A stretch of DNA of 64,000 bases from Planctomycetota bacterium (lineage in GTDB: Bacteria; Planctomycetota; Planctomycetia; Planctomycetales; Planctomycetaceae): positions 1 to 64,000 of the forward strand of contig QQVO01000003.1 in assembly GCA_003388505.1 (NCBI GenBank). The letters run 5' to 3'. The first letter of the stretch is position 1, and the number at the start of each line of letters is the position of its first letter. The position numbers were made by a program, and so were the translations under genes. The notes under the pieces were generated by a model. It did no database searches. It was not told the origin of the DNA and was given only the letters and a program-made list of their open reading frames with translations. Of the stretch, positions 6,377-44,773 are shown piece by piece.

Positions 6377-7636
6377 CTACTTCTTGAGCCCGGCGAGGTC
6401 CTGCACGAGCGCGCGGAGGAATGGTTCCACGTCGGTTACGACGCCGATCGTCTGGTAGGTGCCTCGGTCGGCGAGCTTGGTGACGGTCGCCGGGTTGATG
6501 TCGACGCAGACGACCTTGACGCGGGCCGGGAGGAGATTCCCGGTAGCGATCGAATGCAGCGTCGTCGCGATCATCAGGCAGAAGGTGACCCCTTCGCAGA
6601 GTTCGCGCATCTTTCGCTGCGCTTCCACGATGTCGGTGACGACGTCAGGGAGGGGGCCGTCGTCGCGAATGCTGCCCGCGAGCAGGTAGGGAATCTCTTT
6701 CCGGACGCATTCGTACATGATGCCAGACTTCAAATGGCCGGATTCGACCGCCTGCGGGATGCCGCCGAGTCTCCGAATGCGGTTGATTGACCGCAAATGG
6801 TGCTCGTGGCCCTCCTCGGCCGCTTTGCCATGCGTCATCGAGATGCCGAGGCTGGTGTCGAAAAACGACTGTTCGATGTCGTGGGCGGCGAGGGCGTTGC
6901 CGGCGAAGAGGACGTTGACGTAGCCGTTCTCGATGAGCCAACTGAAGTGATTCCGGCTGCCGGTGTGAACGACGGCCGGTCCCGCAACGATGAGGATCTT
7001 GCCCGATTCGTCGCGCGTGCGGTGCATCGACTGCGCGATGTCGCGAACCGTCACGCCTTTCGGCTTCTCGCTGGAGACGGTCGAGTTCATGAAGCTGAAG
7101 GCATCGTGGCCGGAGCGGTCGCGTTCGACGGGATGGACGCGGGTGCCCTGCCGGCCGATGACGACCAGTTCTCCCTGGGCGACGTCGCACATCGGGATGC
7201 AGCGGGCGAACTTCTTCGAGTCATCCACCACCAGACCGCAGTCCATTTCGGCCCGGTCGACCGGGATCCAGCCGCCGTCGACGCGGACCTCGGTCACCTC
7301 GTTGGTCGTGCAGTAGAACCCCTCGGGGAAGGCCCCGTCCATGTCGGCCGGTTCGAGCCGCGCATCCTGGATGTCGAGCGGCATCGCACCGTGCTGCCCG
7401 ATGGCCACGAGGATTTCCTCAAGCGCCTCGTTCGACGCGGCGCGGACGGTGAGCGTCACGCGGCTGGCGTCGCGCCGCCGGTGGCCGATCTGGACGTCCT
7501 GAAATTCGAACTCGCCGCCGAGAGAGACGATCTCATCGAGCACTTTGGGAAGGATCAGGCTGTCGATGATGTGGCCCGAGAGTTCCACCTGTTCACTGGC
7601 CGGGAAGTTCGCGTTCTGTTCGGTTGAAGAACTCAT
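6377..7636 (-). CDS. TIGR00300/LOR-SDH family enzyme, ornithine cyclodeaminase-like
   Basis: A 419-residue protein matching the LOR/SDH conserved-region family (TIGR00300). The N-terminal ~100 residues are the small LOR-type domain (ELSGHIIDSLILPKVLDEI); the rest is the nucleotide-binding catalytic part with TTNEVTEVR, ILIVAGPAVVHTG, FAGNALAAHDIEQ and a Rossmann-like VKVVCVDINPATVTKL. Members in archaea act as ornithine cyclodeaminases, and cyanobacterial AgrE/ArgZ proteins carry an extra arginine dihydrolase domain that is absent here. Conversion of ornithine to proline is therefore a reasonable but unproven role. I took the ATG at 7636; an upstream in-frame start would add 52 residues rich in Pro and Ala. 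Confidence 0.8.
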   Translation of the reverse strand: MSSSTEQNANFPASEQVELSGHIIDSLILPKVLDEIVSLGGEFEFQDVQIGHRRRDASRVTLTVRAASNEALEEILVAIGQHGAMPLDIQDARLEPADMDGAFPEGFYCTTNEVTEVRVDGGWIPVDRAEMDCGLVVDDSKKFARCIPMCDVAQGELVVIGRQGTRVHPVERDRSGHDAFSFMNSTVSSEKPKGVTVRDIAQSMHRTRDESGKILIVAGPAVVHTGSRNHFSWLIENGYVNVLFAGNALAAHDIEQSFFDTSLGISMTHGKAAEEGHEHHLRSINRIRRLGGIPQAVESGHLKSGIMYECVRKEIPYLLAGSIRDDGPLPDVVTDIVEAQRKMRELCEGVTFCLMIATTLHSIATGNLLPARVKVVCVDINPATVTKLADRGTYQTIGVVTDVEPFLRALVQDLAGLKK

Positions 7637-7869
7637 CAACGGTATCCTTATGAAGCGTCGCCGGGGTTCAGCCACAGGAATTGTATGAGGGGTTGCGCGG
7701 TGTGGCGATGGGACTTGTGCAGGGGGAGCGGCGGGCGTGAGTCCGGCGATGCGTCCTTCCGCCGTCGCGCACGCCGCGATTTCCTGTCTCACCGTGTGGA
7801 ACTATCGGCTTACGCCGACGGCTCGCCGGGCTGCTGTTGCGTGCTTCCGGGGAGTGCTAAGATCGGCGC

Positions 7870-8907
7870 ATGCCCGCCGCGATTGAAGTCAGCAACCTAT
7901 CGAAGCGCTACCGCGTCTACCGGAAACGGGAAGGCGTGTGGGCGTCGGTGACGGGCCTGTTCCGCCGCGACTACAAGACGGTTGAAGCGGTGAAGAGCGT
8001 GAGTTTTTCGATCGACGCCGGAGAAATGGTCGCGTTTCTCGGACCGAACGGGGCGGGAAAGACGACGACGCTCAAACTCCTCTCCGGGCTGGTGTTTCCC
8101 ACGTCGGGAGACGCAGTGGTGCTGGGGCATATCCCCTGGAAGCGTGAACACAGTTATCGCCGCCGGTTTTCGCTGGTGATGGGTCAGAAGAACCAGTTGT
8201 GGTGGGATCTGCCGGCGCAGGAATCGTTCGGGCTGCACAAGGAGATCTACCGGATCGATCCGGACGCCTTTGAACGGAGACGGGACGAACTGACCGACCT
8301 GCTGGAGGTGGGAGACCTCGTGGCGCAGCCGGTGCGGGAACTCTCGCTCGGCGAGCGGATGCGGATGGAACTTATCGCCGCGCTGCTGCACAGTCCCGAT
8401 GTGCTTTTTCTGGACGAACCGACAATCGGACTGGACGTCGTCTCCCAGCGAAAGGTGCAGGAGTTCCTGAAGCACTACCAGGCGGAAAAGAAGATTACGG
8501 TCATTCTGACGAGCCACTACATGAAGGACGTCGAGGCGCTCTGCCGCCGGGCGATCATCATCAACGAAGGCGAGATCAAGCACGACGGTCCGCTGGCCGA
8601 CATAACCGACCGCTTCAGCCGCAACAAGGTGATTCACCTGCAGTTCGCCGGCGCCGACGTTCCGGCGGATCTGGGGAAGTACGGCAACGTGTTCGACGTC
8701 CACCCGCCGCGGGCCAAGCTGGAGGTTCCGCGTCAGAAGATTGCGGAAGTGCTCACCTCGCTGCTGGCAAAGTACACGCTGGAGGACGTGGGGGTCCAGG
8801 AGCGGCCGCTGGAGGAAGTGATTGCAGAGGTGTTTACGAATTCGAAGTCGAACTGCGAAGAAGTTTCGGTCTCGGTGGGGGAGACCGTCGGCCCCGGCGG
8901 GATTTGA
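7870..8907 (+). CDS. ABC transporter ATP-binding protein (ABC-2 type export)
   Basis: A 345-residue ABC ATPase. Walker [10 protein letters not shown] is at 58-66, the signature LSLGE at 158-162 and Walker B VLFLDEP at about 178-184. The [18 protein letters not shown] segment is typical of ATPases that pair with DUF990-type ABC-2 permeases. The last ~110 residues form the extra C-terminal domain of exporters in this class. No permease gene is adjacent; the flanking genes are an enzyme (divergent) and the acyltransferase-aminotransferase. The only ABC-2 permease in the window is at 43.9 kb and is of the matching class. Confidence 0.92.
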
Positions 8908-9097: not shown

Positions 9098-10918
9098 ATG
9101 CCGACCGTGGGATCACTTCCGGTACGGAGACAGCATGCTGGGTTGTGTGTTCGCCCGGCGACTCCGCAGGATCGGCGTCAGATCTACCGCCAGCGGCATC
9201 GCGTGTATGCCGAGGAGTTGGGACAGCATCACGTCAATGGTCGCGGCGAATTGAGCGATGCGCTGGACGAATTCAATGACTACGTTGTTGTCGCGCGGGA
9301 GGAGACAGTCGTCGGTTTCTTGAGCATCACGCCTCCCGGGCAGAGCGCGTATTCGCTTGACAAGTATTTGCAACGGGAAGATTGGCCGTTTCCGGTCGAC
9401 GCGGGACTCTACGAGTTGCGGCTGCTGACGGTTGTGGCAGCAGAACGGAACGGCCCCGGGGCGTTGCTGCTGATGCACGCTGCACGCCGGTACCTTCAGG
9501 AACACGGCGCTACGCGCGTCATGGCGATCGGCCGGTCCGAGATTCTCGACCTGTATCTCCGAATCGGTCTCCGGCGACTGGGGCGAGAATTCGCGTCCGG
9601 CGCCGTCAAGTACGAGTTGATGACCGCAACGCTCGATGAAGTGGCGCGTTGTACCGCTGAATTTGAACCACTGATTCGTCGCATGGAATCGCGTACGAAC
9701 TGGCAGATGGACATTCCGTACTCAGTCTCAGACTCCCCGGCGACTCAGTTGCCTGTCTCGGAACGATCCAGAACCTGCTATCACGGCGGGGCGTTCTTCA
9801 GCGCAATCGGCGACGGGTTTGAAGCCTTGGATCGGAGGACGGAGGTCATCAACTCCGACGTGCTCGACGCATGGTTTCCGCCTGCGCCTGCCGTGCTTGA
9901 CGAACTGGGAATACACCTCGAGTGGATTCTACGGACGTCTCCGCCGACGCACTGTCAAGGGTTGATTCGCGAAATCTCCTCGGCGCGGTGTGTGCCCGAG
10001 CAGTGCCTGTTGCCCGGTGCCGGGTCGTCGGATCTGATCTATCGGTCCATACCCCATCTGGTGAAACAGGGTTCGAGAGTTCTATTGCTGGACCCCACCT
10101 ATGGCGAGTATCAGCACTTCTTCGACCACGTCATGCCGTGCGAAGTCGAACGACTGATCCTGCACCCGGAGGATGGCTTCGTCGTCGGCGTCGACGAAAT
10201 CGAGAAGGCGCTCCGGAACGCTTACGATCTGGTCGTGCTGGTGAATCCCAATAATCCGACCGGAATGCACATTCCCCGAGAACGTCTGGAGGGCCTCCTC
10301 GAAGGGGCACCTGCTTCAACAAGGTTCTGGATTGACGAGGCCTACGTCGATTTCGTGTCTCCCACCGAGTCACTCGAACAGTTCGCCGTGACGACCGACA
10401 ACGTTGTGGTGTGCAAATCGATGTCGAAGGCGTACGCTCTGAGCGGCGCACGAGTCGGTTATTTGTGCGGTCCCCACAGACTCATCGATGAATTCCGTGC
10501 GAAGACCCCGCCCTGGGTGGTCAGCCTGCCGGCGCAAGTCGCCGGCGTCCTCGCGCTGCGCGATCCGGACTACTATCAGGCGCGTTATATGGACACGCGC
10601 CGCCTGAAGACCGCTCTCGCCGGCAACCTGCAGAAACTGGGGTTCGATGTCTGGCCAGGTGCGGCCAATTTCCTGCTATGCCGGATTCCACCGCACATGG
10701 GCGACGCGGCTTCGCTCATCGACCGTTGTCGGAGGAAAGGGCTGTTCCTGCGCGACGTCTCGTCCATGACCGCCCGTCGTTGGGACCGCATGCTTCGCGT
10801 GGCCGTGAAGGATTGCGCGACAAACGAGCGGATGATCGAAATCCTCCGACACCAGATCGAAGACGTGCGTCAGCCCGGCCGACGATTCGCCGGCGCGTCG
10901 TCATCCGGCGGCGAATGA
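9098..10918 (+). CDS. Acyltransferase (LuxI/FeeM/GNAT-like) - PLP aminotransferase fusion
   Basis: A 606-residue two-domain protein. Residues ~16-180 form a GNAT-fold acyltransferase whose RQIYRQRHRVYAEELG start, LDEFNDYVVVA core and YELRLLTVVAAERNGPG segment resemble LuxI/FeeM-type N-acyl synthases more than ordinary acetyltransferases. Residues ~225-590 are a fold-type-I PLP enzyme of the histidinol-phosphate aminotransferase group: PNNPTG at 384-389, WIDEAYVDF with Asp413 and Tyr416, and the Schiff-base lysine Lys444 in SMSKAYALSG. The ATG at 9098 has GAGGA about nine bases upstream. Both active sites look intact, so the protein may make an N-acylated amine or amino acid; the product is unknown. 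Confidence 0.82.
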   Translation: MPTVGSLPVRRQHAGLCVRPATPQDRRQIYRQRHRVYAEELGQHHVNGRGELSDALDEFNDYVVVAREETVVGFLSITPPGQSAYSLDKYLQREDWPFPVDAGLYELRLLTVVAAERNGPGALLLMHAARRYLQEHGATRVMAIGRSEILDLYLRIGLRRLGREFASGAVKYELMTATLDEVARCTAEFEPLIRRMESRTNWQMDIPYSVSDSPATQLPVSERSRTCYHGGAFFSAIGDGFEALDRRTEVINSDVLDAWFPPAPAVLDELGIHLEWILRTSPPTHCQGLIREISSARCVPEQCLLPGAGSSDLIYRSIPHLVKQGSRVLLLDPTYGEYQHFFDHVMPCEVERLILHPEDGFVVGVDEIEKALRNAYDLVVLVNPNNPTGMHIPRERLEGLLEGAPASTRFWIDEAYVDFVSPTESLEQFAVTTDNVVVCKSMSKAYALSGARVGYLCGPHRLIDEFRAKTPPWVVSLPAQVAGVLALRDPDYYQARYMDTRRLKTALAGNLQKLGFDVWPGAANFLLCRIPPHMGDAASLIDRCRRKGLFLRDVSSMTARRWDRMLRVAVKDCATNERMIEILRHQIEDVRQPGRRFAGASSSGGE

Positions 10919-43765: not shown

Positions 43766-43839
43766 GCACCCGTAGCTCAGCTGGATAGAGCAGCGGACTT
43801 CTAATCCGCAGGTCGTAGGTTCGAATCCTACCGGGTGTG
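43766..43839 (+). tRNA. tRNA-Arg (anticodon TCT)
   Basis: A 74-nt cloverleaf. The acceptor arm pairs GCACCCG with CGGGTGT, leaving a G1-U72 wobble and discriminator G. The D arm is GCTCAGCTGGATAGAGC; the anticodon stem GCGGA/TCCGC encloses CTTCTAA with anticodon TCT, reading AGA; the T arm contains GGTTCGAATCC. The 3' CCA is not encoded. It reads AGA codons, probably rare in this GC-rich genome. Confidence 0.95.
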
Positions 43840-43900
43840 CTTTTGGGGGGCGGTCGCGGGGCGGGTTTGGCCGGGCGGCCGTGATGGACGCGAGGGGACG

Positions 43901-44773
43901 ATGGCTGCAGGGGTGGAGGCGATCAAGCCGACCGAATGGATTTCCCGGCATCGCGTGCGGTGGGTGATTCTGCGGACCTGCATCGAAGAGCGGCTGGTCT
44001 ACCGGGCCGACTTTGCGATGGGGACGCTGTTCCGGTTCCTGCCGATCGTGACGCAGATCTTTTTGTGGGGGGCGATCTTCGGCGTCAGCGCGGAAACCGG
44101 CAGCAGCGGCGAAGAGAGGCGGATCGCCGGGTACAGCTACCATGACATGGTGGCGTATTACCTGCTGGCGATGCTGGCGCGGGCGTTTTCCAGCATGCCG
44201 GGGCTGGCCAGCGGGGTGGCCCGGGACGTCCGCGACGGGACGGTGAAGAAGTACCTCACGCAGCCGATCGACATGCTGGGGTATCTGTTCTGGCATCGGG
44301 TGGCGCACAAGCTGGTGTACTACGCCGTGGCGGCCGGGCCGTTCGCGCTGGTGTTCTGGCTGTGCCGCGACTTCTTTCCCGGCTGGCCGGACGGGTGGAG
44401 GATCGCGGCCTTTGTCGCGTCGCTGCTGATGGGATTTCTGATGGGATTTCTGCTGGAAGCGCTGATCGGGATGATCTCGTTCTGGTTTCTGGAGGTGAGT
44501 TCGCTGCTGTTCATTTACATGATGATCAACTACTTCCTGTCGGGGCACATGCTGCCGCTGGACCTGCTGCCGGACTGGGTGACGATGGTCGTCGATTACC
44601 TGCCGTTCAAGTACCTGGCGTACCATCCGCCGGCGATCCTGCTGGGACGCTATTCGGAAGACCAGTTGCTGCGAGAGATGCTGATCGAAGCGGGATGGAT
44701 CGTGGGGCTGCTGTTGCTGAACCGTATTGCGTTTGCGCGGGGTGTGAGGCGATACGGTGCGTTCGGGGGCTGA
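43901..44773 (+). CDS. ABC-2 type permease (DUF990-like)
   Basis: A 290-residue inner-membrane protein with about six helices. The segment ARDVRDGTVKKYLTQPIDMLGYLFWHRVAHKLVY is the cytoplasmic signature of ABC-2 permeases of the DUF990/ABC2_membrane_6 class, which export unknown substrates together with an ATPase and often a second permease. The ATG at 43901 has GAGGGGA just upstream; earlier in-frame starts would lie inside the tRNA gene. No ATPase is adjacent; the matching-class ATPase is at 7.9 kb. Confidence 0.88.
   Translation: MAAGVEAIKPTEWISRHRVRWVILRTCIEERLVYRADFAMGTLFRFLPIVTQIFLWGAIFGVSAETGSSGEERRIAGYSYHDMVAYYLLAMLARAFSSMPGLASGVARDVRDGTVKKYLTQPIDMLGYLFWHRVAHKLVYYAVAAGPFALVFWLCRDFFPGWPDGWRIAAFVASLLMGFLMGFLLEALIGMISFWFLEVSSLLFIYMMINYFLSGHMLPLDLLPDWVTMVVDYLPFKYLAYHPPAILLGRYSEDQLLREMLIEAGWIVGLLLLNRIAFARGVRRYGAFGG

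Follow-up and report, generated by a model that had tools for sequence, protein, structure and literature searches.

LuxI- and FeeM-type enzymes acylate amines using acyl-ACP (acyl carrier protein) or acyl-CoA (coenzyme A). HisC converts imidazole-acetol phosphate to histidinol phosphate; dihydroxyacetone phosphate (DHAP) has a hydroxyl instead of the imidazole, and serinol phosphate is histidinol phosphate with a hydroxyl replacing the imidazole. In phospholipid synthesis, PlsY and PlsC acylate the hydroxyls of glycerol 3-phosphate and lysophosphatidic acid, and CdsA activates phosphatidic acid with cytidine triphosphate (CTP). The N-acyl serinol synthase that Cohen published in 2017 reportedly has an aminotransferase domain. 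Here we analyze a gene at positions 9098-10918 (+ strand) of a 64,000-nucleotide stretch of DNA from a Planctomycetota bacterium of the family Planctomycetaceae (contig QQVO01000003.1 of assembly GCA_003388505.1); we call this stretch the window. The original prediction, made from the letters alone, was that this open reading frame (ORF) fuses a LuxI/FeeM-like acyltransferase to a pyridoxal phosphate (PLP) aminotransferase and might make an N-acyl signal or lipid.

Microbiome N-acyl synthase (hm-NAS) genes produce N-palmitoyl serinol (PMC9605164, PMC11271093), as does the one from Bacillus sp. 2_A_57_CT2 (PMC9605164). The hm-NAS known from Desulfitobacterium hafniense DP7, Bacillus sp. 2_A_57_CT2, and Gemella are N-acyl synthases, and their product may contain the amine that we propose for the window protein. 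The PLP half of the window protein is CobD/HisC-like, not class V. The N-terminal aminotransferase domain of RtxA converts DHAP to serinol phosphate (PMC3222319). This is the reaction that we propose below, so RtxA (from Bradyrhizobium elkanii) resembles the window protein in its proposed reaction, and it is fused to a sulfhydrylase-like half instead of an acyltransferase. A review raises the idea that host enzymes might convert N-acyl serinols to phospholipid-like species (PMC12594153). Among the papers that our literature searches listed (for one search, 15 of 14,536), no bacterial serinol phospholipid is named.

In our tests, the window protein falls outside CobD, HisC, and LuxI. It resembles an N-acyl synthase fused with a PLP enzyme whose kind acts on phosphates. 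With confidence that falls just short of even, we propose that it is a bifunctional enzyme of lipid synthesis. The PLP half would make serinol phosphate or a similar amine and the N-terminal half would acylate it; the resulting amide analogue of lysophosphatidic acid would enter phospholipid synthesis. We infer both substrates, the product, and the product's fate from what we computed: the fusion, the predicted folds, the conserved catalytic residues, the lipid genes nearby in several phyla, and the second copies of PlsY and CdsA.

The fusion is conserved

The gene is a single ORF of 606 amino acids that begins with ATG and has no internal stop codon. Profiles, a structural model, and fold matches place a GNAT acyltransferase with a LuxI/FeeM-like fold in residues 1-205 (9098-9712, + strand; the acyl-N-acyltransferase half itself spans roughly residues 16-205) and a CobD/HisC-like fold in residues 224-590 (9767-10867, + strand). 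The sequence features that had been singled out in both halves are all there: LDEFNDY is residues 56-62, YELRLL is residues 105-110, and PNNPTG is residues 384-389 (10247-10264), followed by Asp413 (10334-10336) and Lys444 (10427-10429). We take Asp413 to be the aspartate that pairs with the pyridine nitrogen of PLP and Lys444 to be the Schiff-base lysine.

Among the species genomes of bacteria and archaea that we scanned, 67 loci encode a relative; the last dozen of these are remote and match the PLP half only. In a six-frame domain search, both halves were in one ORF at 65 of 110 loci (duplicate records counted), and stricter thresholds left 62 fused loci with 59 distinct proteins. By record name, full-length homologues occur in about 10 phyla: Planctomycetota, Verrucomicrobiota, Kiritimatiellota, Bacteroidota, Actinomycetota, Chloroflexota, Gemmatimonadota, Acidobacteriota, Spirochaetota, and Thermodesulfobacteriota. 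Two metagenome-assembled genomes (MAGs) labelled Pseudomonadota also have the fusion; some MAG labels are doubtful, as a row labelled "Sphingomonadales" sits among the Bacteroidota. When we aligned 43 full-length proteins, the invariant residues included R33, Y37, E40, L41, Q43, E106, R108, V112, and R117 in the N-terminal half and N383-P384-N385, P387-T388-G389, D413, K444, R552, and R567 in the PLP half. E40 and Q43, which lie in YAEELGQH (residues 37-44; 9206-9229), are also invariant in 20 aligned fusions of another type, with a class-V aminotransferase (see below). E106-x-R108 (9413-9421) is a strand motif of the acyltransferase. Because fused loci recur and these residues are invariant, we rule out a chance fusion or an accident of assembly or reading frame: the fusion is a conserved architecture.

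Within the window's phylum, 27 of 392 genomes have a match at E ≤ 1e-30, and 11 of these (including the window's own) match over nearly the full length. In the window's family, 8 of 170 genomes have a match: three full-length proteins (one of them the window's), one truncated fusion, three orthologues of the PLP half, and one remote paralogue. This patchy occurrence suggests transfer or loss. The truncated fusion (L151:4929-6272) retains the N-terminal half, and its PLP half is broken after about residue 414.

In a quick tree, the PLP halves form one clade (support 99) that is separate from CobD-like and HisC-like rows. The tree had 82 of 96 rows; three truncated proteins, the remote paralogue L003, and 10 remote myxobacterial proteins were left out. 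Rows that lack the acyl half are scattered within the clade, which takes six changes, at least three of them forced by starred branches. With several separate placements, the acyl half was probably lost repeatedly. No separate acyl gene was found beside the PLP-only orthologues in the stretches examined, some of which were short.

We also searched mobile elements. Viral contigs had 31 remote relatives of the PLP half, with matches that begin at residue 256 or later, and by match range none of these is a fusion; the class-V fusion had no match in these contigs. Among phage records, 50 had a match but none covered 80% of the query, and the five matches listed were all to the PLP half only. On plasmids, full-length homologues are annotated as histidinol-phosphate transaminase in six of eight cases, and the other two have no annotation there. 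Such annotations, which in the Streptomyces plasmids L099-L101 leave the acyl half unmentioned, hide that half from view.

The acyltransferase half

The original prediction described the N-terminal half as LuxI/FeeM-like, and its modelled structure agrees. Using a model of this half alone (mean predicted local distance difference test score, or pLDDT, of 91.8; predicted template modelling score, or pTM, of 0.86), the top six Foldseek matches in the PDB are synthases of N-acyl-homoserine lactones (AHL), namely BjaI, LasI, and RpaI, with FeeM at rank 21. The predicted fold is like those of LuxI-type enzymes and FeeM over most of its length. The best Z score is to BjaI (18.5 over 184 residues, with a root-mean-square deviation of 2.7), followed by RpaI (18.1), TofI (17.8), FeeM (17.4), MesI (17.1), and LasI (17.0); as a group, AHL synthases score 16.9-18.5.

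It was also claimed that this half is closer to AHL synthases or N-acyl amino acid synthases than to acetyltransferases, and here the evidence is divided. Foldseek ranks AHL synthases at the top, and the alignments to AHL synthases and FeeM are longer (157-184 residues versus 137-140 for the GNATs compared). But SACOL1063, a plain GNAT, reaches a Z score of 18.0 (140 residues aligned), and another four GNATs score 16.5-16.9, level with LasI and close to FeeM. With an ordinary GNAT within 1 Z unit of BjaI, the match to the LuxI fold is unspecific. The N-terminal half does not resemble ordinary acetyltransferases only, given its matches to AHL synthases, yet the tie with a GNAT keeps this comparison from being decisive, and the fold alone leaves the acyl donor unsettled.

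Profile searches give a similarly mixed picture. When the N-terminal halves of the 43 aligned proteins were scanned singly against Pfam, all 43 matched Acetyltransf_1, 29 matched Acetyltransf_5, and 34 matched FeeM (PF21926; best E = 2.4e-10), each at E ≤ 0.01. The window protein had no FeeM match in either Pfam scan, one of which reached to E ≤ 1. Its match to Acetyltransf_5 (residues 33-126) scores 22.5 bits if the N-terminal 219 amino acids are isolated and only 19.8 bits if the whole protein is scanned, against a cut-off of 22.4. In NCBIfam, 34 of the 43 halves match a PEP-CTERM/exosortase acyltransferase family at E ≤ 0.1. The curated profiles of AHL synthases have no match to the window protein at E ≤ 0.1; among the 43 members, PRK13834 (TraI) matches three (best E = 0.0028) and NF052393 matches two (best E = 0.00043). 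Two members match the OlsB model weakly. The strand motif also differs: LuxI has E-x-S-R, and the window protein has E-x-R. Unlike LuxI and FeeM, the window protein carries a fused PLP enzyme. Overall, the predicted structure and the profiles support a LuxI/FeeM-like acyltransferase.

The PLP half

The PLP half belongs to aminotransferase class I/II (Aminotran_1_2, PF00155, at residues 304-581; 121.8 bits versus a cut-off of 19.7). The best profile is CobD (TIGR01140), at 198.2 bits versus a cut-off of 290.55, followed by HisC (TIGR01141), at 168.2 bits versus 276.55. In the full-length model (mean pLDDT 88.0, pTM 0.64), the best solved relatives are CobD with its substrate (1lc7; Z of 41.3 over 354 residues, model residues 225-591) and a plant HisC (Z of 41.1).

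We compared diagnostic residues across 96 PLP halves, whose labels as CobD-like or HisC-like were assigned by our own analysis. Besides the catalytic PLP residues, the family shares two arginines with CobD and HisC: Arg552 (10751-10753) aligns with one and Arg567 (10796-10798) with the second, and these presumably bind the substrate, as in CobD and HisC, where they hold its phosphate or carboxylate. H229-G230-G231 (9782-9790) is common to the CobD-like rows (all but one of which have HGG) and not to the HisC-like rows. The family has D254, D257, W259, and S281-P282-P283 where CobD-like rows have S, I (or V or L), P, and Y-P-D. Together with the curated cut-offs, these differences rule out CobD or HisC proper.

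Phospholipid genes near the fusion

The most consistent neighbour is a CdsA-like gene in Actinomycetota. In three annotated Streptomyces plasmids, the fusion is followed by a gene for a CdsA-like phosphatidate cytidylyltransferase, and the start of this gene overlaps the stop of the fusion (a fourth plasmid record in this set has no annotation). A CdsA-like CTP_transf_1 gene is downstream on the same strand at all 14 loci of an actinobacterial clade. A CdsA-like match has this same position in all 12 positive genomes of one family, from 150 genomes searched; these are partly the same genomes as the clade's. L028 and L057, which are labelled Actinomycetota and lie elsewhere in the tree, have no CdsA-like match. 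In a Nonomuraea genome, the CTP_transf_1 gene beside the fusion is a second copy besides another, while each of four other genomes that we searched, including the window's, has one CTP_transf_1 gene, on a different contig from the fusion.

Other lipid genes are found in other lineages. By Pfam, L017 has CDP-OH_P_transf less than 20 bp downstream and DAGK_cat further on; L025 has an overlapping PlsC-type acyltransferase upstream and an MMPL transporter downstream; and L036 has, upstream, an alpha/beta hydrolase and a 1112-amino-acid protein that combines major facilitator superfamily, acyltransferase, and AMP-ligase domains, with a B12 radical S-adenosylmethionine (SAM) protein downstream. By tblastn, the acyltransferase and AMP-ligase protein is also in L021, and L040 has the ligase part only. 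L052 has an AMP-ligase 140 bp downstream of the fusion, and DAGK_prokar lies 151 bp upstream of the truncated fusion in L151.

We searched the flanks, which differ in length, with ten lipid queries drawn from these same loci and L111 (see below). Of the 62 fused loci, 22 had a match above 40 bits, in 20 cases on the same strand; among the 17 PLP-only loci, there was one. Around 58 control loci (514 kb; HisC/CobD-like, myxobacterial, and viral), the only matches to these queries were three to PlsC, at 43-66 bits. As a test for chance neighbours this control is weak, because the controls are from other taxa and have different flanks.

Relatives of B12-binding radical SAM proteins occur near the fusion or the PLP-only form in Kiritimatiellota and a Desulfobacula MAG (L021, L031, L035, L036, L040, L051, and L056, with a short ORF in L012); for L036 and L031 this is based on Pfam. 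The nearest NCBIfam models to the L036 protein include BchE, HpnJ, and HpnR, all below their cut-offs. Two PLP-only orthologues are in a quite different setting: L053 and L054 are near genes for peptidase-C39/ATP-binding cassette (ABC) exporters (by Pfam for L054), and L053 is also near a cyclic-nucleotide-binding protein.

A second fusion with a class-V aminotransferase

Searching with the N-terminal half, we found a plasmid of Cytobacillus spongiae with a second, independent fusion (L111:5998-7605), in which the acyl half is of FeeM type (33.4 bits; cut-off 27) and the PLP half is an unrelated class-V aminotransferase. In a single pairwise comparison, this protein and the window protein align in their N-terminal halves alone (26% identity, E = 2e-15). 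Its PLP half is nearest to 2-aminoethylphosphonate aminotransferases but below their cut-offs. A PlsY gene is directly upstream, and the fusion overlaps the gene that follows, which is similar to lipoteichoic acid (LTA) synthase. This fusion is a plausible relative of the Bacillus hm-NAS.

In a profile search of 382 planctomycete genomes, 27 matched the N-terminal half at E ≤ 1e-12: 11 have the window's type, and the other 16 have nothing but a weaker-scoring type. (In the phylum of genome G535, 2 of 346 genomes matched at this threshold.) We read 19 weaker-scoring ORFs (L177-L195), which come from the 16 genomes plus three of the 11. Each matches the Cytobacillus protein, 18 of them along most of the sequence and the last one truncated by its contig, and the four that we checked with Pfam have FeeM and Aminotran_5. 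E40, Q43, D54, E106-x-R108, and R117 are common to the acyl halves of both types (21 of 21 rows).

At 8 of the 19 planctomycete loci (L185, L186, and L190-L195), PlsY directly precedes the class-V fusion, abutting or overlapping it, and these are 8 of the 9 loci with over 41% identity to the Cytobacillus protein. Four of these PlsY genes (one of them in two overlapping loci) match G3P_acyltransf at 111-131 bits, versus a cut-off of 24.1. In all 8 genomes, the PlsY beside the fusion is a second copy, with another on a different contig. G145, whose class-V fusion has no adjoining PlsY, and the window's genome have one PlsY each. Upstream of a further class-V fusion, at L213 (from the genome that also contains L192), lies a PlsC-type gene, and at L200 there is a match to the LTA synthase-like query some 3.6 kb from the fusion.

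Proposed function and alternatives

In our proposal, the product of the PLP half is a small amino-alcohol phosphate; serinol phosphate, formed by transamination of DHAP, is the likeliest. The LuxI/FeeM-like half would then acylate this amine with a long chain taken from acyl-ACP or acyl-CoA, and the final product, N-acyl-serinol phosphate, would be an amide analogue of lysophosphatidic acid. Once formed, it could be O-acylated by a PlsC- or PlsY-type enzyme, activated with CTP by a CdsA-type enzyme, and given a head group by a CDP-alcohol phosphotransferase, to yield a phospholipid with one amide-linked chain. An extra PlsY may be maintained for N-acyl-serinol phosphate in some lineages, and an extra CdsA in others. 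The kinship to CobD and HisC, which act on phosphomonoesters, fits this proposal, as does the retention of HGG and both arginines in the sequence. The lipid role is better supported than a signalling role by the neighbours in several lineages, not by the window's own. More broadly, it is possible, if doubtful, that several phyla make phospholipids on a serinol backbone with one amide-linked chain, starting from DHAP via a fused transaminase and N-acyltransferase, with a dedicated second PlsY or CdsA or, elsewhere, other phospholipid enzymes; for this purpose, one kind of acyl half would have been combined with two unrelated transaminase folds.

Several observations weigh against our proposal. 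The window gene has no lipid gene beside it, and it is among the 40 of 62 fused loci where none of the ten lipid queries matched. No PlsY match lies near the window's type of fusion or its PLP-only relatives (79 loci), and a direct search found none beside 11 of the 19 planctomycete class-V loci (L189 and ten more distant ones). The PLP half also recurs without the acyl half, in one case (L051) within an otherwise similar cluster. Its nearest relative, CobD, catalyses decarboxylation and not transamination, and the acyl half has its tie with SACOL1063. Finally, both fusion types are present in three genomes, and probably in two more that have a second match, so their products may differ.

The amide might instead be released, as a free N-acyl serinol or a similar compound that serves as a signal or surfactant and not as a precursor of phospholipids. 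In E. coli, hm-NAS genes do yield N-palmitoyl serinol in its free form (PMC9605164, PMC11271093), and the 40 fused loci without a lipid match would be expected. We still consider this unlikely, given the CdsA-like partner in the actinobacterial clade, the other lipid genes elsewhere, and the second PlsY beside many class-V fusions. The original prediction of an N-acyl signal fares poorly for this reason and for another: it had pointed out that no LuxR-type receptor is adjacent, and we found none in the whole genome (98.8% complete), where the autoinducer-binding domain PF03472 had no match at E ≤ 0.001 (an E. coli control was positive). As CobD is the nearest relative of the PLP half by both profile and fold, and HGG is common to CobD-like rows only, the PLP half might decarboxylate O-phospho-serine or -threonine, with the N-terminal half giving N-acyl-ethanolamine phosphate or N-acyl-aminopropanol phosphate. 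This too seems unlikely. The residues of CobD-like rows at positions 254, 257, 259, 281, and 283 (S, I, P, Y, and D) are replaced across the whole family, and the CobD score is far below the cut-off. Also, PlsC or PlsY neighbours would need a free hydroxyl, which these products do not have, and the class-V counterpart is nearest to a family of transaminases.

Two other alternatives are less probable still. If the PLP half made an amino acid, the N-terminal half would form an N-acyl amino acid, perhaps a lipid like those of FeeM or OlsB, and the matches of many N-terminal halves to FeeM and Acetyltransf_5, and of two to OlsB, could be read in this way. But the PLP half is nearest to enzymes with phosphate substrates, which makes an amino-alcohol phosphate a likelier amine than an amino acid, one of the original suggestions, and an amino acid product would leave the CdsA, CDP-alcohol, and PlsY neighbours unexplained; we judge it improbable. 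The most improbable of the alternatives is an ordinary acetyltransferase joined to an aminotransferase, making a small N-acetylated metabolite. All 43 N-terminal halves match Acetyltransf_1, and SACOL1063 ties on Z, but the domain aligns over a greater length with AHL synthases and FeeM than with SACOL1063, and lipid genes would not be expected nearby.

Other genes around the fusion in the window

An ATPase of an ABC transporter (7870-8907, + strand) lies 190 bp upstream of the fusion, a neighbour with no shown link to it, and a DUF1501 gene is downstream on the opposite strand. We compared 72 loci and judge that there is no consistent arrangement, and on this ground we reject a link to these neighbours: ABC ATPase genes flank 6 loci and DUF1501-like genes flank 3 (with the window counted in each), at scattered distances and orientations. 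In L009, a DUF1501-like gene abuts the fusion on the opposite strand. The window's ABC ATPase has no adjoining permease; one of the genome's two ABC2_membrane_6 permeases is about 35 kb downstream (43835-44773). Divergent from the ATPase gene is an ArgZ-like / LOR-SDH protein (6377-7792, - strand).

Implications

If our proposal is correct, then the bacteria that carry the fusion should have phospholipids that are 0.984 Da lighter than the ordinary species (NH in place of O), with one chain that is stable to mild alkali, which is a prediction for mass spectrometry. The N-acyl serinols of the gut that act on GPR119 would be linked to the bacteria's own synthesis of membrane lipids. And the fusion would give several phyla a one-gene route to amide-linked analogues of glycerolipids.

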